Below are positions 12,842 to 32,279 of a DNA stretch of 64,000 bases, in pieces (the stretch's first letter is position 1; each line of letters starts with the position of its first letter). A program made the position numbers and the translations under genes. Location: NCBI GenBank assembly GCA_947497985.1, contig CANMIX010000014.1, positions 1 through 64,000 on the forward strand, written 5' to 3'. This DNA comes from an uncultured Paracoccaceae bacterium (GTDB taxonomy: Bacteria > Pseudomonadota > Alphaproteobacteria > Rhodobacterales > Rhodobacteraceae). The notes under the pieces were generated by a model that did not search any database, was not told the DNA's origin, and worked only from the letters and a program-made list of their open reading frames with translations.

Positions 12842-12986
12842 GGGTGGGCTCCTCTGGTGCGGTGGGGCAAGGGATCAAAGCGTGAGGAGAAGCATGGCTC
12901 ATGGGTCCTAACAAGGTCGTGCCGGGGCGTGCGGGGGACGCGCAACACTTGGTTAACCATGACGCTTAAGATGTTGTTTAAAATGC

Positions 12987-13014: not shown

Positions 13015-13044
13015 ACCTGTTGCATTGGTGAGGTTTTGCCCCAC

Positions 13045-14409: not shown

Positions 14410-14731
14410 AGGTGGGCGTTTGGGTGGAAGCATCGGTAATGAGGGCGCTTTGTTCGACAAGGGTTTTCTCCACCTTTTGGCAATCACGGATCAGGGTTTC
14501 GAGCTTGTTGATCTGGGGTTTCGCACCACCCGTTTCCGGGTTCACGGCGTCCTCTGCGCGCAATTGTTCGCGCAAGGCCTCGGCCTCGTTGCGCAAGGAG
14601 AGGATGGAATCATGGAGCGACCGCAACAGATCGGCGGTTTTACCAATCAGCGTTTCTGGAGGATGTTTCATGAGGGGATCAAGGTCCGGTTCGGGCACAT
14701 TAAAGCGCCGCAATGGACCGTCCTGCCGCAC
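14324..14731 (-). CDS. GTA small terminase subunit (g1)
   Basis: This helical protein of up to 135 residues (LLRSLHDSILSLRNEAEALR, then NKLETLIRDCQKVEKTLVEQ) matches RcGTA g1, the small terminase that feeds DNA to the motor. Unlike phage small terminases it is not known to recognise a specific sequence, in keeping with random packaging. The frame opens with GTG at 14731; ATG 14671 (MKHPPETLIG) is an alternative start giving 115 residues. Its 3' end overlaps the start of g2. Confidence 0.85.
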   Translation of the reverse strand: MRQDGPLRRFNVPEPDLDPLMKHPPETLIGKTADLLRSLHDSILSLRNEAEALREQLRAEDAVNPETGGAKPQINKLETLIRDCQKVEKTLVEQSALITDASTQTPTYDFDAVRAEIDSRLARLRATQPGGTISE

Positions 14732-15612: not shown

Positions 15613-15630
15613 AATTCATTCGCATGAATT
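15613..15630 (+). promoter_or_regulatory. Palindromic operator candidate A (PhnF-type)
   Basis: AATTCATTCGCATGAATT is a perfect inverted repeat with 7-base arms and a 4-base centre. It ends 17 bases before the start codon of the PhnD-like gene, with the ribosome site in between. Nearly the same sequence precedes phnF (32172-32189) and phnC (25676-25693). Palindromic GntR/HutC-type operators of this size are usual for PhnF-like repressors, so the site probably puts this cassette under the same regulator. Confidence 0.65.
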
Positions 15631-15647
15631 TCACCTGGAGAGAACCG

Positions 15648-16517: not shown

Positions 16518-16530
16518 TCCGGTGAAAGAT

Positions 16531-17364: not shown

Positions 17365-18166
17365 TATCTCTTCTTTTCCACGTCGGGTGGAACGCCCCTC
17401 GGCGCTGGCGTTTCTGGGCTATGTTTTGGCGATTGCCATTGTGGTCTGGGCCTTTCAGGGCGCAGGGTTTTCACTGGACAAAGTCCTGACCTCACCGCCG
17501 CGTTTTGCCGACTTCATGTCGCGCGCCTTTCCGCCCAATCTGGAGCCGGACGTCCTGGCGCGTCTGGGCCGCAAAATGGTGGAGACGCTGCAGATCGCCT
17601 TTGCAGGGGCCGTGTTGGGGGTGGTTTTGTCCCTGCCCGTCGCCCTGTTGGCGGCGCGTGGTCTGATTGCGGGACCATGGATCAATGGCATCGTGCGCAA
17701 TATCCTCGGCTTTATCCGTGCGGTGCCTGACATCGCCTGGGCGCTGGTCTTTGTGGTCGCTGTGGGCCTTGGCCCCTTTGCCGGCACGCTGGCGATCATG
17801 ATCGACACGGTTGGGTTTTGTGGTCGTTTCTTTGCCGACGATATGGAGGCCGTCGACAAAGGGTCGGCGGAAGCGTTGACCGCCACGGGAGCCCGGCGTC
17901 TGGACGTCACAGCCTGCGCCACCCTGCCCGCAGCCGCGCCTGCCTTTGTGTCAACCGCGCTTTATGCGCTTGAAAAAGCCGTGCGGTCCTCCACCATTCT
18001 GGGCCTTGTCGGCGCGGGTGGGATCGGGATCGAGCTGAAAGTCGGCTTTGACCTGTTCGACTATCCCACCGCGATGACCGTGATCTTGATGATTGCCGTT
18101 GTTGTCATCGCCATTGAGGCCCTCAGCACTTGGGCGCGTAAAATCATTATCGGAGAGCAGCGATGA
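17357..18166 (+). CDS. Phosphonate-type ABC transporter permease (PhnE-like, second copy)
   Basis: A 269-residue inner-membrane permease with about six hydrophobic segments. A binding-protein-dependent transport motif precedes the C-terminus (STILGLVGAGGIGIELKVGF), which is the PhnE signature. Other PhnE-like parts are RNILGFIRAVPDIAWALVFV and GPFAGTLAIMIDTVGF. A single permease gene here contrasts with the split phnE1/phnE2 of the other unit, so it presumably homodimerises. ATG 17357 overlaps the ATPase stop. Confidence 0.88.
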   Translation: MTDISSFPRRVERPSALAFLGYVLAIAIVVWAFQGAGFSLDKVLTSPPRFADFMSRAFPPNLEPDVLARLGRKMVETLQIAFAGAVLGVVLSLPVALLAARGLIAGPWINGIVRNILGFIRAVPDIAWALVFVVAVGLGPFAGTLAIMIDTVGFCGRFFADDMEAVDKGSAEALTATGARRLDVTACATLPAAAPAFVSTALYALEKAVRSSTILGLVGAGGIGIELKVGFDLFDYPTAMTVILMIAVVVIAIEALSTWARKIIIGEQR

Positions 18167-18807
18167 AAACCGACACCGCAGACCAACATTGGAATGCGCA
18201 ATGGTCCAAGGACACAGTGGATGCAAAATGGCTGACACCTGAGGCGGACGTCATAACCTGGGCGGAAAAACTGCCCAAGGGTGCACGGCTGCTGGATCTG
18301 GGCGCCGGGGTTGGCCGTCATGCGCTGTGGCTTGCGGATCAGGGGTTTGGGGTTGTTGCCGTGGATGCCGCATCCGAAGGCCTGGCCGAGATTGACCGCG
18401 CCGGCGGCGTCACCACCCAATTGGCCCGGATGGATGATCTGCCCTTTGACGACGGGTCTTTTGATCACGTGCTCAGCTGGAATGTGATCTATCACGGTGA
18501 CGAAGACATTCTGCTGCGCACCATCGCCGAGATCCGTCGCGTGTTGAAACCGGGCGGCACGTATCTGGGCACGATGTTGTCGCACCGCCGCCTGCCGTTT
18601 GAGCGCGCCAAGGCCGAAGGCCAGGAAATCAGTCGCAACACCTGGGTGTTTGAGAGCGCGGCCTCTGACAAGAAACATCCACATTACTATTGTACGGCGG
18701 CGGAACTGTTGTCGCTGTTTTCTGGATTTGAAGTCCAGTGGCTGGAAGATCGGGAACATGAAAAGCCCGGATCCTACCACTGGCACCTGCTGATGGAGCG
18801 TCTTTGA
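18163..18807 (+). CDS. Class I SAM-dependent methyltransferase
   Basis: This 214-residue Rossmann methyltransferase has motif I LLDLGAGVGRHALWLADQG, an acidic residue ending strand 2 (VVAVDAA) and motif post-I/II MDDLPFDDGSFDHVLSWNVI. RRVLKPGGTYLGT follows. It resembles TehB/methyltransferase-11 types and its substrate is unknown. It overlaps the permease by 4 bases and is coupled to the amidohydrolase behind it, so it belongs to the same pathway. A role in modifying an imported phosphonate or a phosphonate-derived product is possible but unproven. Confidence 0.82.
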   Translation: MKTDTADQHWNAQWSKDTVDAKWLTPEADVITWAEKLPKGARLLDLGAGVGRHALWLADQGFGVVAVDAASEGLAEIDRAGGVTTQLARMDDLPFDDGSFDHVLSWNVIYHGDEDILLRTIAEIRRVLKPGGTYLGTMLSHRRLPFERAKAEGQEISRNTWVFESAASDKKHPHYYCTAAELLSLFSGFEVQWLEDREHEKPGSYHWHLLMERL

Positions 18808-18809
18808 CC

Positions 18810-20021
18810 ATGACCACAACCACTTTTACAGGCGCAAGCGTTTACCTGCCCGATCAAATCGTCGAGACCACGGTCACAATTTCCGAGGGCCAGATCGTTG
18901 AAATCGGCGGCCCGGTTCAGGGAACTGAGGTCGCAGCAGCGGGCCGCATTCTGGCCCCGGCGCTGTTGGACGTGCATGGGGACGCGTTTGAGCGGCAATT
19001 GATGCCACGTCCGGGCGTGTTTTTCCCGGTTGAGGCCGCGGTGATCGACACCGACCGCCAGTTGGCCGCAAATGGGATCGCTACCGCCTATCACGCGATC
19101 ACATTGGGATGGGAGCCGGGTCTGCGCGATGTTGCACGCGGGCGGGCACTGATGCAGTCCCTGTTGGATCTGGCCCCGCGTTTGACCGCTGAAAACCGGG
19201 TGCAGCTGCGCTGGGAGACCTTTGCGTTCGAGGCATTGGACACCATCGAATGGGCGCTGGGCACCGATCTATGCCCCTCGGTGGCGTTTAACGACCACAC
19301 CTCGATGACCATGCGGGCCTATGATGTGGCCATTCAGGATCGCGGTTTTGAACTGGGGCCGGATTTCTCAATCGCGGCACTGGATGATGCGCGGATGAAA
19401 CAGCGCACCGCCTCCAAGGCGACACGCGCGGGCCTGTCGCAAGAGGATTACCTCGCGCTGTTGGGCAAGGTTTGGGAGCGTCGCCAAGACGTGCCTGCCA
19501 TGATCGGCAAGGTTGCGGATATGGGCCGCGCCGCCGGTGCCGCAATGCTGAGCCATGATGACACCCGTGCCGAAACCCGCAGCTTTTTCCGCGAGCTGGG
19601 TGCAGGCGTATCGGAATTCCCGATGGTTCTGGAAGCGGCTGAGGCGGCGCGTGCGAACGGAGATCTGATCGTCTTTGGTGCGCCGAATGCGGCACGTGGC
19701 GGCAGCCATATCGGCTCGCTTGCGGCTGGTGACATGGTCGAGGCTGGCCTGTGTGACGCGCTGGCCTCTGATTATTTCTACCCGGCGATGTTGGCCGCAG
19801 TGGCGCGTCTGGACCAGGACCGCCGTGCCGAACGTCTGGCGATCTGGTCGCTGGTCTCCTCCGGTCCGGCCCGCGCCATGGGTCTGTCAGATCGTGGAGA
19901 GATTGCCGTCGGCAAACGCGGGGACCTGGTGCTGGTGGATTGGCCCGATGGGCACGCGCCCGCAATCGAAGGGACCTGGGTCGGCGGGCGCTGTGCCTAT
20001 CGCGGGGTGCCCCGTGGCTGA
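18810..20021 (+). CDS. PhnM-like amidohydrolase (second, divergent copy)
   Basis: A ~403-residue amidohydrolase-superfamily protein that aligns by eye with PhnM, the RPnTP diphosphatase of C-P lyase pathways. It retains metal-site motifs LDVHGDAFERQ, LSHDDT, the GAPNAARGGSH segment and ASDYFYPAMLAA. It is clearly different from the PhnM at 25806-26999 (for example HGDAFE instead of HGDMIE and a longer helical insert). ATG 18810 follows the methyltransferase stop; a TTG two codons earlier overlaps it. It may hydrolyse a triphosphate or related intermediate in a side pathway. Confidence 0.78.
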   Translation: MTTTTFTGASVYLPDQIVETTVTISEGQIVEIGGPVQGTEVAAAGRILAPALLDVHGDAFERQLMPRPGVFFPVEAAVIDTDRQLAANGIATAYHAITLGWEPGLRDVARGRALMQSLLDLAPRLTAENRVQLRWETFAFEALDTIEWALGTDLCPSVAFNDHTSMTMRAYDVAIQDRGFELGPDFSIAALDDARMKQRTASKATRAGLSQEDYLALLGKVWERRQDVPAMIGKVADMGRAAGAAMLSHDDTRAETRSFFRELGAGVSEFPMVLEAAEAARANGDLIVFGAPNAARGGSHIGSLAAGDMVEAGLCDALASDYFYPAMLAAVARLDQDRRAERLAIWSLVSSGPARAMGLSDRGEIAVGKRGDLVLVDWPDGHAPAIEGTWVGGRCAYRGVPRG

Positions 20022-20051
20022 TTTCAACCAAACACCCCGAGGGACCACATT

Positions 20052-20867
20052 ATGACCCCGCTCAAAATCGGTGCCTGCCTGCGGGCCTGTGAAATTGGTG
20101 ACCATCGCGACTGGCTGTTTGACGCTGGTCGCGACATCGAATTGCAGGACTTCATGACCTTTGCCGCCCTGACCGATGAACGCAAAGACCGGATTGCCGC
20201 CGCCAAAGAGGCCCTGCGGGGTCATCAGGGGCGCATCGGTATTCATGGCCCTTACGAGGGGTTGGATATCGACAACAAAGACGCCGAACTGCGCCCGCTT
20301 ATCACCAAGCGGATGCTTTTGGCGTTGGAGGCTGCCGCCGCCATTGGCGCGCGGCAGATGGCGCTGCATTCGCCTTATCGCAAGTGGTATCAGAACAACA
20401 TTCTGGCGCAGCCCGGCTACGTCGAAAACAAACTGGGCCGCATTCACCAGGTGCTCGGCCCCGTGGTCAAACAGGCCGAGGTCGAGGGCATCACCTTGGT
20501 GATTGAAAACATCGAGGACGTGGACCCCGCAACCCGTCGTCGTATGGTCGAAAGCTTTGCCTCCTCGGCAATTGCCCTGTCGATTGACACGGGCCACGCC
20601 CATCTGGCACGGCGCATGTCGGACGCACCGCCAGTGGATTACTTTGTACGCGATGCGGGCGCGCAGCTGCGCCATGTGCATTTGCAGGATCTGGATGGTC
20701 ACGCGGATCGCCATTGGGCACCCGGCGAAGGGGAAATCCACTGGGTCGAGGTCTTCCGCGCCTTGGCAGACTGCCCCAGCGCGCCGCATCTGGTGCTGGA
20801 ACTGCGCCGCAAAAGCGATATCCCCCAAGGGTTTGCCTATTTGCGGGATCTGGGGTTGGCCTGCTGA
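20052..20867 (+). CDS. Xylose-isomerase-like TIM barrel (sugar phosphate isomerase/epimerase)
   Basis: The 271-residue AP-endonuclease-2/xylose-isomerase-type barrel has metal-binding motifs at strand ends: IGIHGPYEG, ALHSPYRKW, LVIENIEDVD, LSIDTGHAHLA and HVHLQDLDGHADRHWAPGEG. All expected acidic and His ligands appear present, so it is probably active. It is the last gene of the plus-strand cassette and ends exactly one base before the convergent acetyltransferase gene. The substrate may be a sugar phosphate released from phosphonate ribosides; this is inference from context. Confidence 0.8.
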   Translation: MTPLKIGACLRACEIGDHRDWLFDAGRDIELQDFMTFAALTDERKDRIAAAKEALRGHQGRIGIHGPYEGLDIDNKDAELRPLITKRMLLALEAAAAIGARQMALHSPYRKWYQNNILAQPGYVENKLGRIHQVLGPVVKQAEVEGITLVIENIEDVDPATRRRMVESFASSAIALSIDTGHAHLARRMSDAPPVDYFVRDAGAQLRHVHLQDLDGHADRHWAPGEGEIHWVEVFRALADCPSAPHLVLELRRKSDIPQGFAYLRDLGLAC

Positions 20868-21494
20868 TCAGCGGTATTTCTCGATAAAGGCATCAATATC
20901 AAGGGCGCGGATGTCTGGCAGCGCGGCCTTGTATTTTTCACGGCTCCACTCCCAAACCGCGATCTGCAACAAGGCCTCGGTTTGGGACGGGGTGAACCGA
21001 CGCTTGATCTCGCGCGCGGGCACGCCGCCCACAACCGTATAGGGTGCCACATCACGGGTGACCACGGCCCCGGCGCCGATCACCGCGCCGGTGCCAATGG
21101 TCACACCCGCCGTCACCGTCACCCCATGGCCGATCCAGACGTCATGGCCAATGGTGACCCAGTTTTCCTTGCGCCATTCAAAGAACGCGTGGTCATCCTC
21201 TCCCAACCCATAGGCTTCGGCGCGGTAGACCGAGTGATGCTGCAGCGCGCGCCAGGTTGGGTGGTTGCCGGGATTGATGCGGGTTGCATTTGCGATCGAG
21301 CAGAACTTGCCGATCGTGGTCCAGACCACATGGCAGTTCTGGGTGATATAGGAATAATCCCCCATCTGGGAGGACTTCATCATCGTCCCTTTGCCCACCT
21401 CGGTCCAACTGCCAAGGGTGCAGTCGGTGACGCTCGCCTCTGGATGAATGGTAGGGTCTTCGCTGAGGAGGGATTTGGAACCGGCTCCGCTCAT
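20868..21494 (-). CDS. Hexapeptide-repeat acetyltransferase of phosphonate operons
   Basis: A 208-residue left-handed beta-helix transferase of the chloramphenicol/DapH-like class. Hexapeptide repeats surround [20 protein letters not shown] and [20 protein letters not shown], with the catalytic His region [15 protein letters not shown]. It fits the family of hexapeptide transferases habitually found in phn operons, thought to N-acetylate aminoalkylphosphonates or intermediates. Its start overlaps the kinase stop by 4 bases and it is the last gene of the phnC-led unit. Confidence 0.85.
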
Positions 21495-22021
21495 CTGAAC
21501 GTCTCCACAAAGGTGTTAAAGGGCGCGGCGCGGGTAAAGCGTTTCTTGGGCCGCGTGGACTGGTTATAAAAGGTGGCGGCCTTGACCTGCCCCGACTGCC
21601 AGTTGGTCAGGATGAACCACAGGAAACCGGGCAGCATATCGAGCCGTTCGGGACATTCGGCGGCCATATCGGAACGCACCTCGCCCCGGCCAAGGATATT
21701 GCGACGGATCACCCGGATCAGCCGCAGCCACAGCGGCGTGTCGAGCCAAATCACCAGATCTGAGCGTGCTTCGCGAATATCGTAAGTTCGCGAATTGGAG
21801 CCTTCAAAAACCCACGTATCCTCGGCCACGATCCGATTGATCCGCGCCAGCTGATCCGCCTTGTCCCGTTCGACCCAACCGGGCAGCCAGAACACATCGC
21901 GGTCCGTATGGTAGACCGGCAGATCCAGCGCCGCCCCTAGTTTCTTGGCGGCCGTTGATTTTCCGGACCCCGGCCCGCCAATGATCATGATCCGTTTCGG
22001 CGTTTCTTGTGTTTGCGTCAT
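21491..22021 (-). CDS. Small P-loop kinase (FlaR/adenylate-kinase-like)
   Basis: The 176-residue P-loop NTPase has Walker [18 protein letters not shown] followed by [17 protein letters not shown] lid-like part includes [15 protein letters not shown]. The pattern is of the 'DNA topology modulation/FlaR' or AAA_17/18 kinase type, not of PhnN as I know it. It sits inside the phn unit (4-base overlaps on both sides). No PhnN (ribose bisphosphate kinase that makes PRPP) is visible in the locus, so this enzyme may fill that role; this remains a hypothesis. Confidence 0.72.
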
Positions 22022-22875
22022 TTGGCTCCGTCCCAGGTTCCAATGATCCGGGCGCGGATCAGGCCTGAGAGATAATCAATGAGGTACACCATCGCAATAA
22101 TCAGAAAGATGATCGACCAGGCCTCGTCCCATTTATAGGCCGCGATACGATCCGACAGCAAAAACCCAATGCCACCTGCCCCGACGATACCCAAAATGGT
22201 GCCAGACCGCACGTTGGATTCAAAGTTGTAAAGCAGGATCGACAGCATCACCGGATTCACTTGTGGCGCGATGGCAAAACGGATCTGTTGCAGGCGGGAT
22301 CCGCCGGAGGCTTTGACCCCTTCGACAGGTTTATTGGATGTGTTTTCAATCGCTTCCGAGAACAGCTTGGCAAAGGTTCCAACCTCGGACACCGCAATCG
22401 CGAGGATGCCCGCCAATGGTCCCAGACCAAAGGCCCGGATAAAAATCAGCGCCAGGATCAGGGTTTCAAAGGCGCGGATCACATCATAGCCCCGCCGCAC
22501 GCCGAGACGAAAGAAGTTCAAGCGGTTGATATTCTTGGCCCCCAGAAACGACAGGGGAAAGGCAATGATTGCGCCCAGCAACGTGCCCATAAAAGCAATC
22601 GACAGGGTTTCGCCCAGACCTTTGAGGATCTCGGAAAACTCCTCCCAAGTTTGCCAGACATGAGGCGGGAACATAAAGGCCAAGACATTGCCGAGCCGTC
22701 CCAATCCATTCCAGATGCGCGCGGGGCTAAAATCAAACGCCCACAGGCAGTACCCCATGAGGGCCGCGATCCCGCCCAAGACCGCATAGCGGCGCAAGCG
22801 CTGTGGCAAGGGTTCGGAAAACGCTCCGGGCACGGCCGCGCGGGCCGCGTCGATATCTGCTTGTGTCAAGCTCAT
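22018..22875 (-). CDS. phnE: Phosphonate ABC transporter permease PhnE (E2)
   Basis: The 285-residue inner-membrane permease shows the PhnE transport motif SGTILGIVGAGGIGFLLSDR. Other PhnE-like stretches are TLSIAFMGTLLGAIIAFPLS and GPLAGILAIAVSEVGTF. The N-terminal ~35 residues are cytoplasmic. It overlaps phnE1 upstream by 4 bases; the two probably form a heterodimeric channel served by PhnC and PhnD of the same unit. Confidence 0.9.
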   Translation of the reverse strand: MSLTQADIDAARAAVPGAFSEPLPQRLRRYAVLGGIAALMGYCLWAFDFSPARIWNGLGRLGNVLAFMFPPHVWQTWEEFSEILKGLGETLSIAFMGTLLGAIIAFPLSFLGAKNINRLNFFRLGVRRGYDVIRAFETLILALIFIRAFGLGPLAGILAIAVSEVGTFAKLFSEAIENTSNKPVEGVKASGGSRLQQIRFAIAPQVNPVMLSILLYNFESNVRSGTILGIVGAGGIGFLLSDRIAAYKWDEAWSIIFLIIAMVYLIDYLSGLIRARIIGTWDGAK

Positions 22876-23819
22876 GGTCTGTCCTCCAGGCCGATGACTT
22901 TGTGGCGGATTTTCTCGGACCCAAAGTCAATCACGATGACGGTCACAAGGATGATCAGGAACAGGGCTGACAGGTCGGTGTATTCCTGAAAGCTCATGGC
23001 GGTGCGGAACTCTTGTCCCAGCCCGCCCGCGCCCACATAGCCGATGATGGACGACGAGCGGACGTTGATTTCAAAACGCAGCAAAGTGTAGCTGATGATA
23101 TTGGGCAGCACCTGTGGCACAGCACCATAGCGGATTTGGTCAAACCATGTGCCGCCGGCCGCCTTAACCCCTTCGAGGGGGCGCATGTCGATGTTTTCAT
23201 TCACCTCGGAATAGAGCTTGCCCAGGGCACCGCAGGAATGCAGCGAAATCGCCAGCACCCCAGCCATCGGCCCGACTGAGAAACAGAAGACAAAAATCAG
23301 CGCCCAGACCAGATCAGGCACGGTACGCGCGATCTCCAGATAGCGGCGGGTGATCCACAGAACGGCGCGATTGGGGGCCAGATTGCGCGCGGCCGGAAAG
23401 GACAACAAAAAGCCGCCGATCACTCCAAATACAGTCGCCATAAAGGCAATCAGAATGGTTTCCAGCAACAGGCGCAGCCAGGCCTTCCAGCGCCAGAACC
23501 ATTCGGCAAAATCTGCACCCAATGTGTCCCACCGCAAGGTCGGCAAGGTCTGTGACAGGTAATCGCCAAGCCGTGGCAGACCGGCCGGGATGATCCAGCG
23601 CCAATCGCGCGATCCATCCGGCAAGGTCACCTGGGTGATCTTGAAGAAATCTCCGATCCAGGCGGCAAAGCCAAAGACAAGGGCAAAGATCACCGTGCCA
23701 ATCAACCAGCCCCGACGGGCGGCGCGGCGTTTGGCGGCAAAGTCGCGTTCAAACTGGCTGAGAGGTGCCGCACCGTCCTGGGGCGCAGCTGTCAGCGAAG
23801 GGTCAGCGGTTAGGGTCAT
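22872..23819 (-). CDS. phnE: Phosphonate ABC transporter permease PhnE (E1)
   Basis: A 315-residue permease with an N-terminal hydrophobic helix (GWLIGTVIFALVFGFAAWIG), a periplasmic part containing the SRDWRWIIPAGLP stretch and the PhnE motif SSSIIGYVGAGGLGQEFRTA. It is longer than E2, as usual for the first of two tandem phnE genes. It follows phnD after an 80-base gap containing a hairpin (23854-23880) that probably lowers its expression relative to the binding protein. Confidence 0.9.
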   Translation of the reverse strand: MTLTADPSLTAAPQDGAAPLSQFERDFAAKRRAARRGWLIGTVIFALVFGFAAWIGDFFKITQVTLPDGSRDWRWIIPAGLPRLGDYLSQTLPTLRWDTLGADFAEWFWRWKAWLRLLLETILIAFMATVFGVIGGFLLSFPAARNLAPNRAVLWITRRYLEIARTVPDLVWALIFVFCFSVGPMAGVLAISLHSCGALGKLYSEVNENIDMRPLEGVKAAGGTWFDQIRYGAVPQVLPNIISYTLLRFEINVRSSSIIGYVGAGGLGQEFRTAMSFQEYTDLSALFLIILVTVIVIDFGSEKIRHKVIGLEDRP

Positions 23820-23898: not shown

Positions 23899-24819
23899 TT
23901 AGGAGCCTGCGCGGCGTTGTTTCTTGATCCAGGCGCGCATGTCGACGATCCACTGGTAACGCTCTGCGTCAACGCGCTGGAAGCCAACTTTTGGATTGCT
24001 GTCTTCGGGATCAAACGAGGAGTACAGCTTGAAGCCTTCCTCGTCTGCAGTGACGAATTTCTCAAGAGCAACAGTGACGTCTTCGATCATCGCCTCTGGC
24101 AGGTTCTTGCGGAAAGTCCAAGGACCGGTGGTGATTTCAGGGCTCTGCCAGATTTTGCAGATTTGACCGGGCTCGATCATGCCCTTGGTTTCCATGCGCT
24201 GGTAGATGCCGTTGACATCATTGTTCTGGTAGGTCGCAGCTGTGTCAAAGGTGCCGTTATAGACGCCCTGAACATCCGCCTCGTGGCTGCCGCCAAAGGT
24301 CACGGTGCCAAAGAACTCTTCGGGGATGATGTTCTCTTTGTTGACCATGTTCCAGTAAGGAACCGCATAGCCGGATGTGGAGTCGGGGTCGGCAAATGCG
24401 TGCACTTTGCCTTCGGCGTCGGCCAGCGATTTGATGCCGCTGTCACAACGGGTGACAACGATGGAATAATACCCGGTGGTGCCGTCTTTTTTGACGTCGG
24501 TCAGGGTTGGAACAACGCCGCCGTTGGTCGCGGTGTAAGCGGCCGCGTAAGAGGAAGAGCCCAGACGTGCGATTTCGATCTGATCGGCGGCCAGCGCCTG
24601 GATCACACCGTCGTAGTTGCCGGCAGTGAAGATCTCGACCTCAATACCCAGCTCGGCCTCAAGGTATGTTTCCAGCGGCGTGTAACGCGCGATACGGTCT
24701 TTTTCATTCTCACCCGACAGAACGCCGAATTTCAGTACCTGGTAGTCGTCTTTCCAGCCCTCGGCCAGTGCCGGCGCTGCTACAAATGCCGCAAGAACGG
24801 CTGTGGTGATGAAACGCAT
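23899..24819 (-). CDS. phnD: Phosphonate ABC transporter substrate-binding protein PhnD
   Basis: The 306-residue periplasmic protein has a clear signal peptide MRFITTAVLAAFVAAPALA. Ligand-site segments typical of PhnD include FTAGNYDGVIQALAADQIEI, ARLGSSSYAAAY and FADPDSTSGYAVPYW. It is markedly different from the PhnD-like protein at 15648-16517, which suggests different ligands. It lies second in the phnC-D-E1-E2 unit. Confidence 0.93.
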   Translation of the reverse strand: MRFITTAVLAAFVAAPALAEGWKDDYQVLKFGVLSGENEKDRIARYTPLETYLEAELGIEVEIFTAGNYDGVIQALAADQIEIARLGSSSYAAAYTATNGGVVPTLTDVKKDGTTGYYSIVVTRCDSGIKSLADAEGKVHAFADPDSTSGYAVPYWNMVNKENIIPEEFFGTVTFGGSHEADVQGVYNGTFDTAATYQNNDVNGIYQRMETKGMIEPGQICKIWQSPEITTGPWTFRKNLPEAMIEDVTVALEKFVTADEEGFKLYSSFDPEDSNPKVGFQRVDAERYQWIVDMRAWIKKQRRAGS

Positions 24820-24855: not shown

Positions 24856-25659
24856 TCACGCAGGCACGCTGCTGCGCACCGAAGTTGACGTGACCGCCTC
24901 GTTAAAATCGCGCAGCCCATCCAGCCCGTAGATGTCGCGCACCACGTCATCGGTCAGCTGGGCTGCGGTTCCGTCAAAGAACACCCGCCCCTGACGCATG
25001 GCGATAATCCGGTCGCAATAGGCGCGCGCGGTGTCCAATGTGTGCAGGTTGACCAAAACGGTGATGCCGTCTTCGCGGTTGATGTCGCGCAGCCCGTCCA
25101 TCACCGATGTGGCATTGGCCGGATCCAGCGAGGCGATGGGTTCATCCGCCAGCATAATGCGCGGGTTCTGCACCAGCGCCTTGGCAATGGCGACGCGTTG
25201 TTGTTGACCGCCGGACAAGGTGCCTGCCCGTTGCAACGCCTGTGGCACCAGATCCAAACGGTCCAACGCCCGGATCGCCATGGCGCGCTCCGCGTCGGTG
25301 AAATTCATGGTCATCGACGAGATAAACCCATGTTCCGCCAGACGCCCGATCAGAACATTGGTCAGCACATCCAGACGGTCCACCAGATTGAACTGTTGAA
25401 AGATCATCGCGCAGTCGCGCCGCCATTGGCGCAGGGCCTTCCCTTTGAGGGTCGAGACCTCGACCTCGCCAAAGGTGATCGAGCCTGCGGTGGGATCTAT
25501 CAACCGGTTCAGCATACGCAGCATGGTCGATTTGCCCGCGCCCGAGCGGCCGATGACCCCCACGAACTGTCCGGGTTCAATCGACAGGGAAACATTGTCG
25601 ACCGCAAAAGTCTCACCAAATTGGCGGGAGACATTTGTCAGTGTCAGTGCTGAGGTCAT
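24856..25659 (-). CDS. phnC: Phosphonate ABC transporter ATPase PhnC
   Basis: The ABC ATPase shows Walker [10 protein letters not shown], signature LSGGQQQRV, Walker [13 protein letters not shown] and NLHTLDTAR at the H-loop. I choose ATG 25659 because CAGGAG lies 8 bases upstream and because further upstream the palindrome 25676-25693 would otherwise be coding. It heads the unit phnC-D-E1-E2-kinase-acetyltransferase. Confidence 0.92.
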
Positions 25660-25675
25660 CGGTCGGCTCCTGGTC

Positions 25676-25693
25676 AATTCATCCGAATGTTTG
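25676..25693 (-). promoter_or_regulatory. Operator candidate C upstream of phnC
   Basis: The plus strand reads AATTCATCCGAATGTTTG, matching the first ten bases of sites A and B at nine positions, with a weaker right half. It ends 16 bases from the phnC start codon, in the 146-base gap behind phnM. It is probably the third PhnF-type operator in the locus and implies that phnC begins a separate transcript. Confidence 0.5.
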
Positions 25694-25805
25694 ACCAAGA
25701 CCTACCCGGCTTGCGTGAACCCTTGCCGACAGGGCCGTGACGTTCCGGCGATGGTTTTGCGACAAGGCCGTGACAAGGGTCCATCCTGACACGGCCTGTG
25801 TCCGA

Positions 25806-26999
25806 TCAGGCGGCGGCGATGGCCGCTTGTTTCAAGGATTTGAGCTGCCCCGTGGTATGGATCAGCTCACCGCAGCGCAATGTGGCCAGCACCCGCGCGT
25901 GGGGGTCGCGGTCCACCAACACCAGATCGGCCCGCAGACCAGTGGCAATGCGTCCACGATCCATCAGACCCAACGCCTGTGCAGGGTTGGCGCTGACCAA
26001 TGCGGTGGCGCCTGCCAAACCGTTGGGATCCCCCTCGGCCAGCGCCACAACGGCTGCCAGCATCGCCGCCGGGTGATAATCCGCGGCCAGAATATGCAAC
26101 AACCCTTTGGCATGGGCTTCGCGCGCGGACAGGTTGCCCGAATAGCTTTGACCACGCATCGCGTTTGGCGCCCCCATGGCGTTCAACAGGCCCCGTTGGG
26201 CTGCAACTTCGGCGGCCTCAAACGTCACTGGAAATTCGCTGATCACCGCGCCGATTTCGGCCATCAAATGCGCTTTTTCGGCACTGTCATCATCATGGCT
26301 GGCCAGTGCGACACCGTTTTTACGGCATAGGTCGGACACGGCGCGCAGGTTGGACAGTATCACGTCCTGTGGACGGCTGCCCTGGGCGATGCGTGTGGTG
26401 ACACTCTGGCGGGCTTCCACTTCCGAGAGGCCTTCGACCTCGGCGATTTTGCGGATATAGCGTTCCACATCACGGTATTGCCCTTGACCAGGCGTGTGAT
26501 CCATGACCGAGACCAGATCAACCAGTTGTTCGCTGATCAGATCCTCCAACACGCCCACCGCATTGTCGAACGTGATGTCAAAGCGGGCGTGAATGCGGTG
26601 ATCGACGCTGCAGCTTTTGCGCAATGCGTGCAGTTTGCGGATGGTCTGGCTGGTGTGTTCAAACGAGCGGCGTTCGCCCAATTTGGCCCCGCGCGAGAAA
26701 CTGACCGCAGCGTAGGCCGTGGTGACACCGGCAGCAGCCAAACGAGCATCCAGATGCGGCAGCGCCACCTCCATCGGGAAGTCCACAGCGGGGCGCGGTT
26801 CCAGCTCCACCTCGATCATATCGCCGTGCATGTCGATAAAGCCGGGCATCAAAAGCGCACCCTGACAGTCGATCCCCTGCCCGGATCCCGCCATTGACCC
26901 GTCGTCGCAGATCTCGGCAATCAGCCCGTTTTCGACCCGCAGCGCGCCGTGTTCAACCACCCGTTCGGGCAACACCAGAGTGACATTAGACAACCACAT
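25806..26999 (-). CDS. phnM: Alpha-D-ribose 1-methylphosphonate 5-triphosphate diphosphatase PhnM
   Basis: This 397-residue amidohydrolase of the C-P lyase pathway removes diphosphate from the ribosyl-phosphonate triphosphate. Motifs are PGFIDMHGDMIEVELEPRP, ALASHDDDSAEKAH, the GAPNAMRGQSYSGN segment and LAADYHPAAMLAAV. Length and order match characterised PhnM. It follows phnL by 25 bases and is the last gene of the phnFGHIJKLM unit. Confidence 0.93.
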   Translation of the reverse strand: MWLSNVTLVLPERVVEHGALRVENGLIAEICDDGSMAGSGQGIDCQGALLMPGFIDMHGDMIEVELEPRPAVDFPMEVALPHLDARLAAAGVTTAYAAVSFSRGAKLGERRSFEHTSQTIRKLHALRKSCSVDHRIHARFDITFDNAVGVLEDLISEQLVDLVSVMDHTPGQGQYRDVERYIRKIAEVEGLSEVEARQSVTTRIAQGSRPQDVILSNLRAVSDLCRKNGVALASHDDDSAEKAHLMAEIGAVISEFPVTFEAAEVAAQRGLLNAMGAPNAMRGQSYSGNLSAREAHAKGLLHILAADYHPAAMLAAVVALAEGDPNGLAGATALVSANPAQALGLMDRGRIATGLRADLVLVDRDPHARVLATLRCGELIHTTGQLKSLKQAAIAAA

Positions 27000-27024: not shown

Positions 27025-27705
27025 TTACGGCGTGAGGTCGATCACCCGGTCGATCAAATGCGCCACATCGTCGGGATGGTGAAACACACCAATCATCGCG
27101 GTGCCGTTGGATTTCAACTCGGCCAGTCGTGCCACCAAAGCCGCGCGCGCGCCTGCATCCAGCGAGGCCGTGGGTTCGTCGAGCAGCAACAGTTTCTGCG
27201 GTAGGATCAACGCGCGGGCCAGGTTGACCTTTTGCTGTTCACCGCCGGAAAATGTGGTGGGATAAGCACGCCACAGGCTTTGTTTGACGCCAAAGGCATT
27301 CAACCAATGACGCGCTTCCTCGCGGGCGGATGCCGCATCACGACCTGCCCGGCGCAGGGGTTCGGCCACCAATGCCTCGGCCGAGACCCGTGGGCGCGCC
27401 ACCAGAAACTGGGTCACAAAGCCGATCTCACTGCGCCGCAGCAAAGCCAGGTCGACATCGGCGGCGCGCAGCAGGTCAATTACTCCATATTGGGAATGAA
27501 ACAGCGCTTGGCCGGATTGGGCCAGATAGCTGCGATAAAGCGTGCGCAGGAGGGTGGATTTCCCCGCCCCGTTGTGCCCCTTAAGCAGCAGGAATTCGCC
27601 TGCATGAAGATCAAAAGAAACATCTGAAAACGCCGCGAGATGGCTGTTCAGATGATGCATGGTAAAGCCTTTAGTCAGGCGTTGGACCTCGAGAACGACA
27701 CTCAT
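27025..27705 (-). CDS. phnL: C-P lyase ABC-type ATPase PhnL
   Basis: A 226-residue ABC-type ATPase with Walker A GHNGAGKST, the PhnL-type Q-loop region IGFVTQFLVARPRVSA, signature FSGGEQQKVNLARA and Walker B LLLLDEPTASLD. PhnL acts with PhnGHI in building the ribosyl-phosphonate intermediate rather than in transport. It overlaps phnK by 4 bases. Confidence 0.92.
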   Translation of the reverse strand: MSVVLEVQRLTKGFTMHHLNSHLAAFSDVSFDLHAGEFLLLKGHNGAGKSTLLRTLYRSYLAQSGQALFHSQYGVIDLLRAADVDLALLRRSEIGFVTQFLVARPRVSAEALVAEPLRRAGRDAASAREEARHWLNAFGVKQSLWRAYPTTFSGGEQQKVNLARALILPQKLLLLDEPTASLDAGARAALVARLAELKSNGTAMIGVFHHPDDVAHLIDRVIDLTP

Positions 27706-28499
27706 AGCTTTGCGTGCACCAATTGTTGCGTATAGGGGTGTTGCGGGTCTTGGAAAATCTGGTCGACCAGGCCGGCCTCGACCACCTGGCCGCGCCGCAT
27801 GACCATGACCCGGTCGGCCAATGTACGGATCACGCCCAGATCATGAGAGACCAGAACCATAGTGATCTGGCGCTCTTGTTGCAGGCGTTTCAGCGTATCC
27901 AGCACCAGCGCTTGAACGCTGACATCCAGCCCGGTTGTGGGCTCATCCAGCAGCAAAAGCGCAGGTTCCAGCGCGATGGCTTTGGCCAATTGCACCCGCT
28001 GCTGCATGCCGCCTGACAGATCGCGCGGCGGATCATCCAATCGATCCAGTGGAAATTCAGACGCGGCCAGCGCCTCTTGTGCGCGGGCGCGCAACTCACC
28101 AAAGCGGCGTTCCCCGGCCACCAACAGACGTTCGGCCACATTGCCCGAGCTGGTGTGATCCATCAGCAGGCCCAGATGTGGGTTTTGATAGACAATGCCG
28201 ATCCGTTTGGCACACAGCATGCGCCGTTCAAAGCGATCCAGTTCAAACAGGTTGCCGGAAACCTCTGGCAGATCAAGGGTGTAGTCACCGCAGTCCGGGA
28301 TCTCTTCGAGGTTCATCATCCGCAACAGGGTCGATTTGCCAGATCCGCTCTCGCCCACGATGCCCAGCACTTCGCCCGGGTATGCCGTGGCAGAAACGTC
28401 GCGCACTGCAGCAACCGAGCCGTAGGATTTGCTGACGTTGCGGATGCTCAGCAGGGCTTTGGTTTTTACCAGACGGGGGGCGTCCAAAGTGATGGTCAT
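27702..28499 (-). CDS. phnK: C-P lyase ABC-type ATPase PhnK
   Basis: The 265-residue ATPase resembles oligopeptide-type ABC proteins: Walker A GESGSGKST, signature LSGGMQQRVQLAKA, Walker B LLLLDEPTTGLD and H-loop LVSHDLGVI. The typical PhnK ending is DPQHPYTQQLVHAKL. In E. coli PhnK docks on PhnJ of the core complex. It overlaps phnJ by 4 bases. Confidence 0.92.
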   Translation of the reverse strand: MTITLDAPRLVKTKALLSIRNVSKSYGSVAAVRDVSATAYPGEVLGIVGESGSGKSTLLRMMNLEEIPDCGDYTLDLPEVSGNLFELDRFERRMLCAKRIGIVYQNPHLGLLMDHTSSGNVAERLLVAGERRFGELRARAQEALAASEFPLDRLDDPPRDLSGGMQQRVQLAKAIALEPALLLLDEPTTGLDVSVQALVLDTLKRLQQERQITMVLVSHDLGVIRTLADRVMVMRRGQVVEAGLVDQIFQDPQHPYTQQLVHAKL

Positions 28500-29416
28500 T
28501 GCGCGTCCTCCATTTGGCCGTTGTTGTACCAGGTGGCCCCCATTTCAACCGTCTCCCCGTCGCGGGCACGGATTGTTTTGACGCCATAGTCACTGTCTGA
28601 AATCTCATGCGTTGAGGATCCATCAGGCAGCGGGATTTCGTTCATAAAGAACCCACGCGCGCCAGAGCGGTTGCAGGTCAGATCGCCGTGGTCTTCGACC
28701 TTGTAGGGGACATCGTCAAACACCAGCGGTTCGACCCGGGTAAAAGGTGGCACCGCAAAAATGCGTTTCTCGCGCCCTGCGGACAGGATGGTCAGATGCT
28801 GCGCCATATGCAGTTTCGGCACGTCCCAGCGCGGGATTGGTGATGGGGTCATAACATGGCGACCGTTGACCATCGCCGGATAGCTGGCCCCCTGCATCAC
28901 CCGCCCCGAACGCACGATCTGTTCGTAAAGCTGCAACCACATGCGCCCGTAATCCGCATCCGCATGCATCTGCCGCGCAATCGACATATTGGGCTGGACC
29001 GAGCGCAGCGGTTCCGGGTTTGGCACCTGCAACACAAGGGTCTGATGGGCGGCAAGCTTTTCTTCGGGGATGCGGTGGCGCGATTGGATCAAATCGGCCT
29101 GCAGCGTGTCCAGCGTGGTTGGGGCGCCGGACACATCGGCCAAAAAGCGGCGGATGGAGGCTGCATTGACGCTGTCGTCGGCACCTTGGTCGATGACTTT
29201 CACGCAGGTCTTTGGGTTGATCAGCGTCAGAGACACTTGCAAGCCACCGGTGCCCCAACCACGCGCCATGGGCACTTCGCGGCTGGCATAGGGCATTTGG
29301 CAGCCCGGCACGGCCACCGCTTTGAGCATCTTGCGCCGGATTTCGCGTTTGGCTGAAGCATCCAGAAACCCATAGCTCATCGGCTGCCAGGGTTTGGTGA
29401 GTGAGGACAGGCTCAT
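28496..29416 (-). CDS. phnJ: PhnJ-family C-P lyase subunit lacking Fe-S and catalytic cysteines
   Basis: The 306-residue protein is colinear with PhnJ over its whole length. Examples are AVPGCQMPYASREVPM, RGWGTGGLQ, KVIDQGADD, SRHRIPEEKL, QVPNPEPLR, MTPSPIPRWDVPK and GREKRIFAVPPFTRVE. In E. coli PhnJ (radical SAM, cleaves the C-P bond) Cys241, 244, 266 and 272 hold the cluster or form the thiyl radical. Here only the first is kept (Cys248); the others align with Ser251, Ile272 and Gly278 (HEISDSDYGVK in place of the usual CSDTDYC). The frame is intact and the glycine of the PG(C/Y)Q motif remains. It may be an inactive, differently acting or newly specialised homologue. Confidence 0.85.
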   Translation of the reverse strand: MSLSSLTKPWQPMSYGFLDASAKREIRRKMLKAVAVPGCQMPYASREVPMARGWGTGGLQVSLTLINPKTCVKVIDQGADDSVNAASIRRFLADVSGAPTTLDTLQADLIQSRHRIPEEKLAAHQTLVLQVPNPEPLRSVQPNMSIARQMHADADYGRMWLQLYEQIVRSGRVMQGASYPAMVNGRHVMTPSPIPRWDVPKLHMAQHLTILSAGREKRIFAVPPFTRVEPLVFDDVPYKVEDHGDLTCNRSGARGFFMNEIPLPDGSSTHEISDSDYGVKTIRARDGETVEMGATWYNNGQMEDAQ

Positions 29417-30477
29417 TCGGCGGGCTCCTGATCTTGAGGTTGGGCTTGCCGTTTGGCATTGGCATCACGCATTGCGTCCAGTGACGATTGGAAGGTGACG
29501 TAATGCGGCAGTTTAAAGTGGATACAAAAGCCTGAGCTCTCGACCCCTTCGGTGTGATAAAGAAAGAATTCTTCTTCGGTTGCGGATCCTTTGGCAGCCC
29601 CTTTGCTGTTCAGATCCAGCGTCGCGGCCGAGATGCATTTGACCTCGTTCCAGCCTAAAGTCGCGGCAAACCCAAGCGAGAGTTTCTCACCGGATTTCGA
29701 CACCACTTCGGCTTGCGAAACCTTGACCCGCCCGGCTGAAAATTCAGTGCCTTTGGGGTGTTTCACCATCACCTCGGCCTCGGCCAAACGCAGCTCATTC
29801 ACTGTGGGGTGCGCTTTGCCGTAGCCGCGCATCGCTGCATATCCCAATGCCAATGTGCCGCCAGTGTCCGCACGGGCAAGGCTTTGCAATGTGTGGGCGC
29901 GCTTAGATGGGAACAACACCGGCTCGCGGGTGATGTCGGGAATGTCATCCGGTCGGGTCAGGTCCGGCTCCGGCAAGTCCACAAGGTCATTTGCTGCCTG
30001 CCAAGCGGCCACCGAAGGCTGGGTTGCAGGCGCGGGTTGCGCAGCGGCGTCGACTGGCACCGGCACAAAGGGGGTTCCGGTCAATACATCGCTGGCCAAA
30101 ATCCGGTGCGAATAATCCAGGGTCGGCCCCAGCAATTGACCGCCGGGAATGTCCTTGAACGCGGCTGAGATACGGCGATGAGTGAACAGCGCGTTTTGTT
30201 GCACCGGCTGCGCCACTTGCAGTCGGGGCTGCGTGGTGCGCCAGGCGCGTAGCAACAATACGGCCTCATATAATTCGCCACCGGTTTGGGCCAGTGCAAG
30301 CGCCGCAATATCCTCGTCATAAAGCGAGGCCTCGCCCATGACCCGATCGATCAGATAGGGCATGGCAGTGCGGATTTCATTCACGCGGGCCGGGTCGATT
30401 TCGCCCATCTCGGCGCGAAACAGCCGTTCGGCCTGTTCGATCGCACGTGCACCGCCGCGGGTTGCCACATAGGCCAT
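29413..30477 (-). CDS. phnI: C-P lyase core subunit PhnI (divergent)
   Basis: This 354-residue PhnI keeps family blocks MAYVATRGGARAIEQAERLF, GEASLYDEDIAALALAQTGG, DIPGGQLLGPTLDYSHR and FCIHFKLPHYVTFQSSLDAM. The His pair of the zinc site is present (His320, His325; HxxxxH). In E. coli PhnI supplies nucleosidase activity. The stretch between about 255 and 300 differs from what I recall of canonical PhnI: it reads KLSLGFAATLGWNEVKCISA instead of the RGYGLVFGQ-type block. It is therefore divergent like its partner PhnJ, whose gene it overlaps by 4 bases. Confidence 0.87.
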   Translation of the reverse strand: MAYVATRGGARAIEQAERLFRAEMGEIDPARVNEIRTAMPYLIDRVMGEASLYDEDIAALALAQTGGELYEAVLLLRAWRTTQPRLQVAQPVQQNALFTHRRISAAFKDIPGGQLLGPTLDYSHRILASDVLTGTPFVPVPVDAAAQPAPATQPSVAAWQAANDLVDLPEPDLTRPDDIPDITREPVLFPSKRAHTLQSLARADTGGTLALGYAAMRGYGKAHPTVNELRLAEAEVMVKHPKGTEFSAGRVKVSQAEVVSKSGEKLSLGFAATLGWNEVKCISAATLDLNSKGAAKGSATEEEFFLYHTEGVESSGFCIHFKLPHYVTFQSSLDAMRDANAKRQAQPQDQEPAE

Positions 30478-31013
30478 TACAGCACCTCTACTGTTGTGGA
30501 TCGTGGCAGGCCCATGACCTGCGCGCCGTCCTGAAGAAACAGGTCAAATCCCATCGGATACCGGATCAGATTGTCGCGTGCGGACCAGAACCCATCTGGC
30601 AGACCGTCGACGCAGAGTGTCACGGTGCCATCAATTCCAGGCCCCGACAGGCGCAGACGAGGACCAGTATCCAGGGAGACGTTGATCACCACTGTAGCGC
30701 CCGCGTCGGGGTAAAGATCGCTGCCGGTCTTCACGTGGTCCAGCTGCGAGGGATCGGTCATTTTGCCAAGGAACACATGATCCGCCTCGGGCAACTCAGC
30801 AACCAGCGCGCCGGTCTGCATGACCTGTGGCAGCAAGCGTGGGTCGGCGCAGGCGACGCGGCATTCGTGGTCCAACAGGGCAGCGATAATCCCGGCTTCC
30901 CCTGCGGTGGGCAGGATCTGGATTTGCCCCGGTCGGCTGAGCGCGGTCAGCAGCGCCGAGAAACTGGCGTTGGCCAGCGTGTCGAGATCCGACGGTTGTG
31001 GGTGGGTCTGCAT
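30477..31013 (-). CDS. phnH: C-P lyase core subunit PhnH
   Basis: A ~178-residue PhnH with family features FSALLTALSRPGQIQILP near the N-terminus and YPMGFDLFLQDGAQVMGLPR at the C-terminus. PhnH has a PLP-transferase-like fold without cofactor and binds the PhnG2I2J2 core. ATG 31013 overlaps the phnG stop (TGATG) and is preferred to an upstream in-frame start at 31055 inside phnG. Confidence 0.88.
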   Translation of the reverse strand: MQTHPQPSDLDTLANASFSALLTALSRPGQIQILPTAGEAGIIAALLDHECRVACADPRLLPQVMQTGALVAELPEADHVFLGKMTDPSQLDHVKTGSDLYPDAGATVVINVSLDTGPRLRLSGPGIDGTVTLCVDGLPDGFWSARDNLIRYPMGFDLFLQDGAQVMGLPRSTTVEVL

Positions 31014-31447
31014 CAAAATGTCTCCATATCCACACGGGTTGCCTCGATCCGGCATAGGGTTGCGCGGTCCTGTTCGGCGTGGTCCGTGCGCTGTGTGGCG
31101 AGAAACGCGTGACAGTCTGCCACCGCGATGCCCACATCCAGCGCCAGATCAACCAGGGCCATCGCCATCGCCGCCTCAAGATCGCGCCCCTTGCGCATGC
31201 CGTAACCTTCGTGGGGGCCACAACGCAGATGCGCCTCGCTCACCAGAACTTCGCCAAGGTGAAAGGCGGTGCCCTGGGCGGTATCGCGCATAGGCAACAT
31301 GACCAGACCGGTACGGCTGTTCACCACCTCCAGATCGCCCAATTGCGGCACCAGTTCTTCGGCAAAAGGTTTCAGTGCATCCGGCGCACTGCGCGCCAGA
31401 ACACCGAGCACCTCGCTGTGGGCCCAATCCCTGTGGTGTTGGCTCAT
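31013..31447 (-). CDS. phnG: C-P lyase core subunit PhnG
   Basis: The 144-residue PhnG-like protein shows family features RTGLVMLPMRDTAQGTAFHL, GEVLVSEAHLRCG and GYGMRKGRDLEAAMAMALVD. PhnG helps PhnI and PhnH attach the phosphonate to ribose of a nucleotide triphosphate. It starts 3 bases after the phnF stop, confirming a phnFG operon. Confidence 0.87.
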   Translation of the reverse strand: MSQHHRDWAHSEVLGVLARSAPDALKPFAEELVPQLGDLEVVNSRTGLVMLPMRDTAQGTAFHLGEVLVSEAHLRCGPHEGYGMRKGRDLEAAMAMALVDLALDVGIAVADCHAFLATQRTDHAEQDRATLCRIEATRVDMETF

Positions 31448-31450: not shown

Positions 31451-32164
31451 TTACTCCTCCAATGCGATGGTGAATTTGACCCGCACTGCGGACCAGATCA
31501 CCTGTTTGAAACTGATCGGCGTGCCATCCAGCAGCGTGTCCACAGCGCGCACCACCATCACCGGCGATTGAGGGTGCTGTTTCAGGATTTTGGCTTCTTC
31601 GGCGCGCGCCATGCGGCTGTGCAGCGTCGTCTCACCGCGCAGGTAATCGGTGATACCGTAGGTCTTGTAGGCTTCGGTGACAGAGCCCAGCACATCCATG
31701 CGTGCCGTGAAATCGGGAAAGCGGTCTACGTCGTGATAGGATGTGCCAACATTGATCGGCAGCCCATTGCCAAGGGTCATCCGGCGGCTTTCGTTGACCA
31801 CCGCGCCTTCGACCAAATTCAACGCCTCAGCGACCCGCTGGCGGGCGGGCACCATTTGGGCGTCCAGCAATTCGCGTTTCAGATCGACGCCCTGCCCCTG
31901 CAGATTGCGCCGCAGACGGGTGCGCTTGCCAATGGCATATTCCAACAACGGCCCGGTCTCGACAAAGGTGCCGCGCCCCTGCTCAACGCTCAACAAGCCT
32001 GCGCGCGCCAAGTCCGCGACCGCACGGCGCACGGAATGGCGACCTGCGCCGTATTTCTCGACCAATTCCGGCTCTACCGGAAGGCGGTCACCGGCTTGCA
32101 ATGCTCCGCTAGAGATGTCATTTGCAATTTCATCCCGCACCAGACGCCATTTTTCTTTCTGCAT
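31451..32164 (-). CDS. phnF: GntR-family phosphonate regulator PhnF
   Basis: The 237-residue protein has an N-terminal winged helix (SGALQAGDRLPVEPELVEKY, then GRHSVRRAVADLARAGLLSV) and a C-terminal UTRA ligand domain of HutC type. This is the PhnF architecture. It probably represses the phn units and itself; a perfect palindrome lies 8 bases before its start (32172-32189). It is the first gene of phnFGHIJKLM. Its effector is unknown, perhaps a phosphonate or pathway intermediate. Confidence 0.9.
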   Translation of the reverse strand: MQKEKWRLVRDEIANDISSGALQAGDRLPVEPELVEKYGAGRHSVRRAVADLARAGLLSVEQGRGTFVETGPLLEYAIGKRTRLRRNLQGQGVDLKRELLDAQMVPARQRVAEALNLVEGAVVNESRRMTLGNGLPINVGTSYHDVDRFPDFTARMDVLGSVTEAYKTYGITDYLRGETTLHSRMARAEEAKILKQHPQSPVMVVRAVDTLLDGTPISFKQVIWSAVRVKFTIALEE

Positions 32165-32189: not shown

Positions 32190-32279
32190 CAAACTATGCA
32201 GGCGCGGTAACAGGCAGATGACGCGTGGTTGAAGCTTTTGCCACAGGCGCGGGTACGCCTGCGGCTTGGGCAATTTGGG

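Follow-up and report, generated by a model that had tools for sequence, protein, structure and literature searches.

The 64,000-nucleotide stretch of DNA analyzed here (the window) carries on its minus strand a phnFGHIJKLM operon whose phnJ gene, phnJ2 (28496..29416), codes for a PhnJ paralogue devoid of three of the four cysteines of the Fe-S site. The coordinates given for this gene in the preliminary description proved correct; stop codons interrupt the stretch when it is read on the plus strand, and on the minus strand it forms an intact reading frame of 306 amino acids. As that description had also stated, phnJ2 adjoins phnF, phnG, phnH, phnI, phnK, phnL and phnM. All of these genes have intact frames and lie on the minus strand. 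The operon begins with phnF (31451..32164), the gene for a GntR/UTRA regulator, which is followed by phnG (31013..31447), phnH (30477..31055) and phnI (29413..30477). Beyond phnJ2 lie phnK (27702..28499), coding for the ABC ATPase of the core complex, phnL (27025..27705), coding for a further ABC ATPase, and phnM (25806..26999), coding for a ribosyl-triphosphate diphosphatase that scores above the cut-offs of both NF011988 and TIGR02318, so that the core genes phnG, H, I, J, K and L are found together with phnM. PhnK and PhnL were named by their best family matches (TIGR02323 and TIGR02324, respectively), and both fall below the NCBI equivalog cut-offs (232 against 303 bits for PhnK, 233 against 256 bits for PhnL); these two subunits are therefore divergent as well.

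The genes for a phosphonate transporter follow on the same strand: phnC (24856..25698; transporter ATPase, above the cut-off of TIGR02315), phnD (23899..24819; phosphonate-binding protein, with the PhnD chain 3p7i as the nearest solved structure), and the permease genes phnE1 (22872..23819) and phnE2 (22018..22875), both above the cut-off of TIGR01097. Next to them is a minus-strand gene for a hexapeptide transferase (20868..21494) that scores above the cut-off of the phosphonate-associated family TIGR03308. The frames of the transporter and transferase genes are intact as well. A small P-loop kinase gene (21491-22021, minus strand; 'DNA topology modulation' family, below cut-off) is inserted between phnE2 and the transferase gene, and is present near phnJ2 in some loci only. 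The plus strand carries an accessory cluster (15624..20867), often adjacent to the operon in other loci too, which codes for a second phosphonate-type transporter (PhnD-like, PhnC-like and PhnE proteins, the second PhnD-like protein at 15624-16517), a methyltransferase, a PhnM paralogue above the cut-off of NF011987, and a TIM-barrel protein resembling xylose isomerase. Genes for a major head protein, a head protease, a portal protein and a large terminase lie near the phn region as well (9671-14487, minus strand), and resemble those of a gene-transfer agent or prophage.

The assignment of PhnJ2 to the PhnJ family along its full length, already made from the sequence, is borne out by the Pfam profile PF06007, which it matches over positions 3-271 of 275 (383.7 bits against a cut-off of 25; E 5e-115), and by its alignment with residues 8-273 of the Escherichia coli protein (E 4e-80). 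NCBIfam returned no PhnJ match for either PhnJ2 or canonical PhnJ; its silence on PhnJ2 is uninformative because the canonical protein goes unmatched too. According to the available part of PMC9947105, the four cysteines of E. coli PhnJ (positions 241, 244, 266 and 272) form a putative Fe4S4 site and Gly32 is the proposed radical site; Cys272 and Gly32 are described as the pair that passes on a hydrogen radical in the accessible text of PMC11978286, where the four cysteines and Gly32 also serve as marks of a working PhnJ. Measured against this set, the alignment upholds what had been read from the window alone: Cys244, Cys266 and Cys272 are replaced by Ser251, Ile272 and Gly278, respectively, and Cys248, equivalent to Cys241, is the sole cysteine of the site that is kept. 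PhnJ2 hence lacks the four-cysteine signature of the catalytic subunit of the radical SAM C-P lyase. It shares with the E. coli enzyme (PDB 4XB6, 7Z15-7Z19) homology over the full length, the predicted fold, the residues of the phosphoribosyl pocket, the equivalent of the radical glycine (Gly38) and the operon partners, but differs from it, apart from the three cysteines, in a longer C-terminal tail (306 versus 281 residues overall). Canonical PhnJ proteins are 48% identical to PhnJ2, and carry Tyr and Ala at the positions at which 100 of the 104 distinct PhnJ2 sequences listed have Cys39 and His207, respectively.

Within the family, 394 genomes were searched, almost every one from a different genus, and 203 of them have a PhnJ match. 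Among 33 genomes followed up with the window protein, and picked mostly because they had two matches or odd scores, 24 contain PhnJ2 (the window's own genome counted); the other 23 PhnJ2 proteins are 73-88% identical to that of the window, each from another genus. A scan of genome contigs yielded 553 matches, of which the best 80 were taken as further phnJ2 loci; in the order to which Devosia marina belongs, 16 of the 397 genomes examined contain PhnJ2, D. marina among them. From 120 partly overlapping loci, including the best 80 of the 553 matches, 104 distinct PhnJ2 sequences were derived. As judged from these sequences, PhnJ2 constitutes a clade in Rhodobacterales and Hyphomicrobiales. In a PhnJ tree of 104 rows, the 38 PhnJ2 rows are set apart from all others by a branch with 100/100 support and a long stem, although the bootstrap was not fully settled; the question posed at the outset, whether the Cys-less type forms a clade of its own with intact neighbours, can thus be answered in the affirmative, as the operon is kept too. 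The core genes phnGHIJKL are complete in 96 of 100 loci (19/20 and 77/80, in two sets that overlap in part), as scored by best BLAST match with no length cut, and the four loci that lack the complete core are 4.6-12.7 kb long.

The substitutions at the Fe-S site are shared throughout. None of the 104 distinct PhnJ2 sequences listed possesses a cysteine at positions 251, 272 or 278, whereas all four cysteines are present in each of 33 canonical PhnJ proteins from this family (the 30 with the best scores and three others) and in all 30 canonical PhnJ proteins fetched from the class. The loss of the cysteines must therefore reflect more than chance or error. Between 24 PhnJ2 and the 33 canonical proteins, 50 sites differ that are fixed, or fixed bar one row, in both groups (positions that are gaps in canonical rows excluded). 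At the same time, Gly38, Gly53 to Thr56, Arg113, His114, Gln130 and Cys248 are invariant in all 104 sequences listed. Cys39, which adjoins the radical glycine, had initially appeared to be a universal catalytic cysteine (24/24, then 87/87 sequences), an idea that was dropped when divergent Hyphomicrobiales were found to carry Tyr or Ser there (4 of the 104 listed). The median dN/dS, determined by a simple method on 34 usable of 36 pairs among nine chosen sequences, is 0.11, with dS saturated. The operon with phnJ2 is under purifying selection, and the preliminary description was right in holding that phnJ2 is no pseudogene, given its intact frame and the conserved clade. Residues held to be essential in E. 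coli PhnJ are gone, as sequencing errors or the decay of a duplicate might bring about, but such an origin is extremely improbable for a protein that recurs in 24 genera of one family sample with a kept operon, invariant residues and a dN/dS near 0.11, and the 100/100 clade already contradicts it. Chance, pseudogene formation and assembly error are consequently ruled out by the clade, the dN/dS values and the invariant residues.

The predicted structure is consistent with this family membership. An AlphaFold model built on an alignment of 89 rows attained a mean pLDDT of 85, the C-terminal domain included, compared with 41.5 when only 24 close relatives were supplied, and Foldseek placed E. 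coli PhnJ (7z17_D; TM 0.83/0.91) at the top of its matches. Since many canonical PhnJ rows entered the alignment, the model mainly indicates that PhnJ2 is compatible with the PhnJ fold and should be regarded less as an independent finding.

The PhnI-PhnJ interface harbors a second, putative active site. In the E. coli complex, Arg107, His108, Gln124 and the loop 47-50 of PhnJ contact the phosphoribosyl cyclic phosphate (PMC9947105, in the part available). The corresponding PhnJ2 residues are the invariant Arg113, His114, Gln130 and segment 53-56, and the window's PhnI likewise retains the zinc ligands, with His223, His320 and His325 in the positions of E. coli His219, His328 and His333; these histidines are invariant in 86 of 86 aligned rows. 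The phosphoribosyl/zinc pocket has therefore been kept while the Fe-S site has gone. PhnI also contains His195, His240 and a clade-specific cysteine, Cys318, which is located two residues before His320 and adjoins the zinc site and His195; it is found in 86/86 rows from PhnJ2 systems, against a leucine in 33/33 canonical PhnI proteins. In 16 further loci, the zinc histidines and Cys318 are all kept. A move of the Fe-S ligands to another subunit was considered and rejected, as none of the subunits shows several new conserved cysteines: there is a single one in PhnI (Cys318) and in PhnM (Cys225), none in PhnL, and one each in PhnH (79/84), PhnK (76/85) and PhnG (55/80) that is not invariant. The PhnM cysteine, Cys225, is present in 84 of 84 aligned rows of the operon's protein.

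A third PhnJ type was encountered in two loci (L058 and L059, from genomes G131 and G315). These resemble the PhnJ2 systems in that their PhnI possesses the GFC motif with Cys318 as well as His240, and their PhnJ is 49-53% identical to PhnJ2, but it retains all four cysteines and forms a separate branch of the tree; no match above 60% identity to this type was found in 385 genomes of the class. Because Cys318 occurs there together with the complete set of PhnJ cysteines, it cannot by itself be taken as a sign that the radical site has been lost.

The genome from which the window derives contains a second phnJ (contig C3:263030-263842) with all four cysteines, situated in an operon of its own that includes phnN. 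Such canonical alphaproteobacterial operons (that of the window's genome and that of locus L033, for instance) share with the phnJ2 operon the core genes, the transporter and a related hexapeptide transferase, and differ from it in the four PhnJ cysteines, in the possession of their own phnN and in the leucine at the position of PhnI Cys318 (33/33). In an Alphaproteobacteria MAG (L120) and a Marivita MAG (L125), the contig of the phnJ2 operon also carries canonical-like genes for PhnCDE and the transferase. A canonical-scoring PhnJ accompanies PhnJ2 in 49 of 58 genomes tested (28/32 and 21/26), mostly judged by score and not by its cysteines. Of the 24 PhnJ2 genomes of the family sample, 21 contain another PhnJ (once in two pieces), a larger share than in the 370 genomes that lack PhnJ2, of which 179 have any PhnJ match (Fisher p 1.9e-4, uncorrected for kinship).

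In nine genomes PhnJ2 was the only PhnJ found, namely those of Devosia marina (G394), Haematobacter genomosp. 1 (G399), and G074, G297, G808, G986, G1009, G1045 and G1079; completeness is 99% for G074 and G297, and no figure is given for the other seven. A tenth, G335, is only 79% complete and is thus an unsafe case. Four of the PhnJ2-only genomes are spread over three positions of the PhnJ2 tree. The earlier concern that a second canonical phnJ might make phnJ2 redundant is hence justified as far as the presence of a copy goes, but the redundancy itself is not borne out, since PhnJ2 is the only type seen in nine genomes and conservation across the clade is strong.

The frequent company of a canonical PhnJ also fits a helper role of PhnJ2, and the chief rival to the interpretation that we develop below builds on it. 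PhnJ2 would then be a catalytically dead structural subunit, kept for the docking of PhnK and PhnL, in a complex that does no more than ribosylate certain phosphonates, whose C-P bond is cleaved by canonical PhnJ or another enzyme. The loss of the radical-site cysteines and the co-occurrence in 21 of 24 genomes agree with such a role, as does the PhnK-docking domain of PhnJ described in the available part of PMC9947105. We nevertheless deem it unlikely, though deserving of serious attention, because the nine PhnJ2-only genomes keep the operon, including those at three separate places in the tree, and because the residues of the ligand pocket are all invariant in the sequences listed.

The same co-occurrence could be understood in still another way. 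Radical chemistry might have been retained, with a radical on Gly38 installed in trans by canonical PhnJ or another radical SAM activase, and with Cys248, Cys39 or PhnI Cys318 as the thiyl residue. The invariance of Gly38, Cys248 and PhnI Cys318 speaks in favor of this proposal, which we nonetheless consider rather improbable: Cys39 is replaced in 4 of the 104 sequences listed, no other PhnJ was seen in nine genomes, Cys318 also occurs in two loci with all PhnJ cysteines, and no radical SAM protein was detected among the 19 window proteins scanned with Pfam (phnC, phnE1 and phnE2 products were scanned with NCBIfam only and lie outside this set). The latter result bears on the preliminary description too. 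Its view that normal radical SAM cleavage by PhnJ2 alone is hard to see stands, with three of the four cysteines absent, and it is therefore reasonable to think of another mechanism or substrate, as it proposed; the Pfam scan lends no weight to its further suggestion that the locus may use another lyase.

Evidence on the end of the pathway comes from PhnN. This enzyme scores above cut-off in all nine PhnJ2-only genomes (in nine of ten with G335, in which none was found at 79% completeness), and its gene lies within about 13 kb of phnJ2, at roughly 3-12 kb, in seven of the nine; it is on another contig in G986 and G1009. PhnN above cut-off was recorded in 16/16 genomes with both PhnJ types, in 8/10 canonical-only genomes (with a strong match in 10/10) and in 1/10 genomes without phnJ; in the window's genome it is encoded at the canonical locus. 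The presence of PhnN in all nine PhnJ2-only genomes suggests that the PhnJ2 pathway, too, delivers its phosphorus as ribose 1,5-bisphosphate. It is possible that PhnN is a left-over of a lost canonical operon in these organisms; in D. marina, a canonical-like phnM, transferase and transporter lie beside phnN. PhnP was dropped as a product marker, as TIGR03307 was above cut-off in none of 41 genomes and yielded weak general matches only, canonical-only genomes included, and DUF1045 (PF06299) is not a specific substitute for it, being present in 6/10 genomes without phnJ.

With regard to gene regulation, the Pho-box consensus was used to search the 150 nt upstream of phnF; of the 80 named loci, the 74 distinct ones were included. 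A site with at most 4 mismatches in 14 positions was found in 54 of the 74 regions and one with at most 3 in 40, compared with 4.6% and 0.5%, respectively, of base-shuffled controls that preserved base content only, the related rows not being independent; nothing in the remaining 20 regions came within 4 mismatches of the consensus. Relative to the phnF start codon, as placed by alignment with the window's gene, 40 of the 54 sites begin 54-65 nt upstream. The window's own Pho-box-like site (32207..32224, minus strand; 60 nt before phnF) has 4 mismatches of 14 and is weak taken alone, and two upstream regions of the canonical operon of the same genome have 6 mismatches. The sites of the clade, identified by sequence match, argue for phosphate-starvation control and a nutritional role. 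One might instead envision a non-phosphorus oxyanion or organo-compound, such as an arsenic or sulfur analogue, as the substrate, or a function in regulation in place of nutrition, for which the linked second transporter and methyltransferase, both unusual, could be quoted; such a role is very unlikely, however, in view of the Pho-box-like sites, the phosphonate-type PhnD and the linkage to PhnN.

The reading that we tentatively favor, with a confidence somewhat short of even, is that the complex operates under phosphate starvation, ribosylating a phosphorus compound and releasing its leaving group at the PhnI-PhnJ zinc site by non-radical chemistry. Several features speak for a working pathway of phosphorus acquisition, namely the pocket, the zinc ligands, PhnN and the Pho-box-like sites; the known radical chemistry is hard to reconcile with a PhnJ in which three of the four Fe-S-site cysteines, including Cys272, are missing. 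On this view, the C-P-lyase-like operon of the window is a divergent second one, whose products are probably formed during phosphate starvation. PhnCDE would import the phosphorus compound, PhnG, PhnH, PhnI and PhnL would join it to the ribose of ATP or GTP, and PhnM would trim the ribosylated compound. In the complex that the subunits presumably form, the conserved PhnI-PhnJ2 pocket would then hold the product, and a non-radical expulsion of the leaving group appears most likely because PhnJ2 has neither the Fe-S ligands nor the radical-carrying Cys272. Zinc and histidine at the interface (PhnI His320, His325 and His223; PhnJ2 His114) may drive the attack of the ribose 2'-OH or of water on phosphorus, perhaps with the help of PhnI Cys318. 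Phosphorus would end up on C1 of ribose 5-phosphate, and PhnN would make PRPP from this putative product. Rather than methylphosphonate, the substrate would presumably be a compound whose P-X bond is open to heterolytic cleavage; activated phosphonates, phosphoramidates and phosphate esters are examples.

Two groups of features lie outside this non-radical mechanism. It does not need the conserved Gly38 and Cys248, and it leaves the cluster of methyltransferase, PhnM paralogue and TIM-barrel protein unexplained. A match to one of these three, pieces counted, is found near phnJ2 in 42 of the 80 named loci. Close orthologues of the TIM-barrel protein (at least 70%) are encoded in 12 of 16 genomes with both PhnJ types and in none of 25 others; the notion that this protein is a required partner of PhnJ2 was rejected, as no close orthologue was found in any of the five PhnJ2-only genomes tested. 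In one locus with both types (L079), the TIM-barrel gene is reduced to a 31-residue piece.

Another genome reportedly carries a second C-P-lyase-type operon that is said to support growth on methylphosphonate. A fosmid with a Rhodobacteraceae C-P lyase supports growth on this compound according to the accessible part of PMC3840354. A literature search by title and start of the abstract, with subscription papers mostly outside its scope, brought up no cysteine-less PhnJ among the papers listed, and the available portions of PMC9947105, PMC9381506, PMC8774927, PMC5649143, PMC11978286 and PMC3840354 make no mention of one.

The PhnJ2 system, if active, would bear on a puzzle in the structural work on C-P lyase. 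The Fe-S site lies about 30 Å from the radical glycine, and the putative active zinc site is at the PhnI-PhnJ interface, as set out in the part of PMC9947105 available; PhnJ2 systems separate these two sites, with the zinc site present and the Fe-S site absent. Counts of phnJ serve in surveys as a marker for methylphosphonate-driven methane release and phosphonate use (PMC8774927 and PMC9381506, as far as accessible), and PhnJ2, which is far above the Pfam cut-off, may well be counted as phnJ in them, above all in Rhodobacterales. Many marine and some soil bacteria carry, usually beside the normal set, a second complete set of phosphonate-degrading genes with PhnJ2, which evolution has kept intact and which probably gains phosphorus in another way. 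We put forward as a conjecture, plausible but still rather doubtful, that it constitutes a widespread, oxygen-tolerant branch of C-P lyase that would cleave the P-X bond of a phosphoribosyl-linked substrate by zinc/histidine-based and perhaps cysteine-assisted chemistry, with neither radical nor Fe-S cluster, and would thereby open up a class of environmental phosphorus compounds for which no enzyme has yet been assigned. Activity of PhnJ2 would mean that C-P lyase can pursue its phosphoribosyl strategy without radical chemistry.
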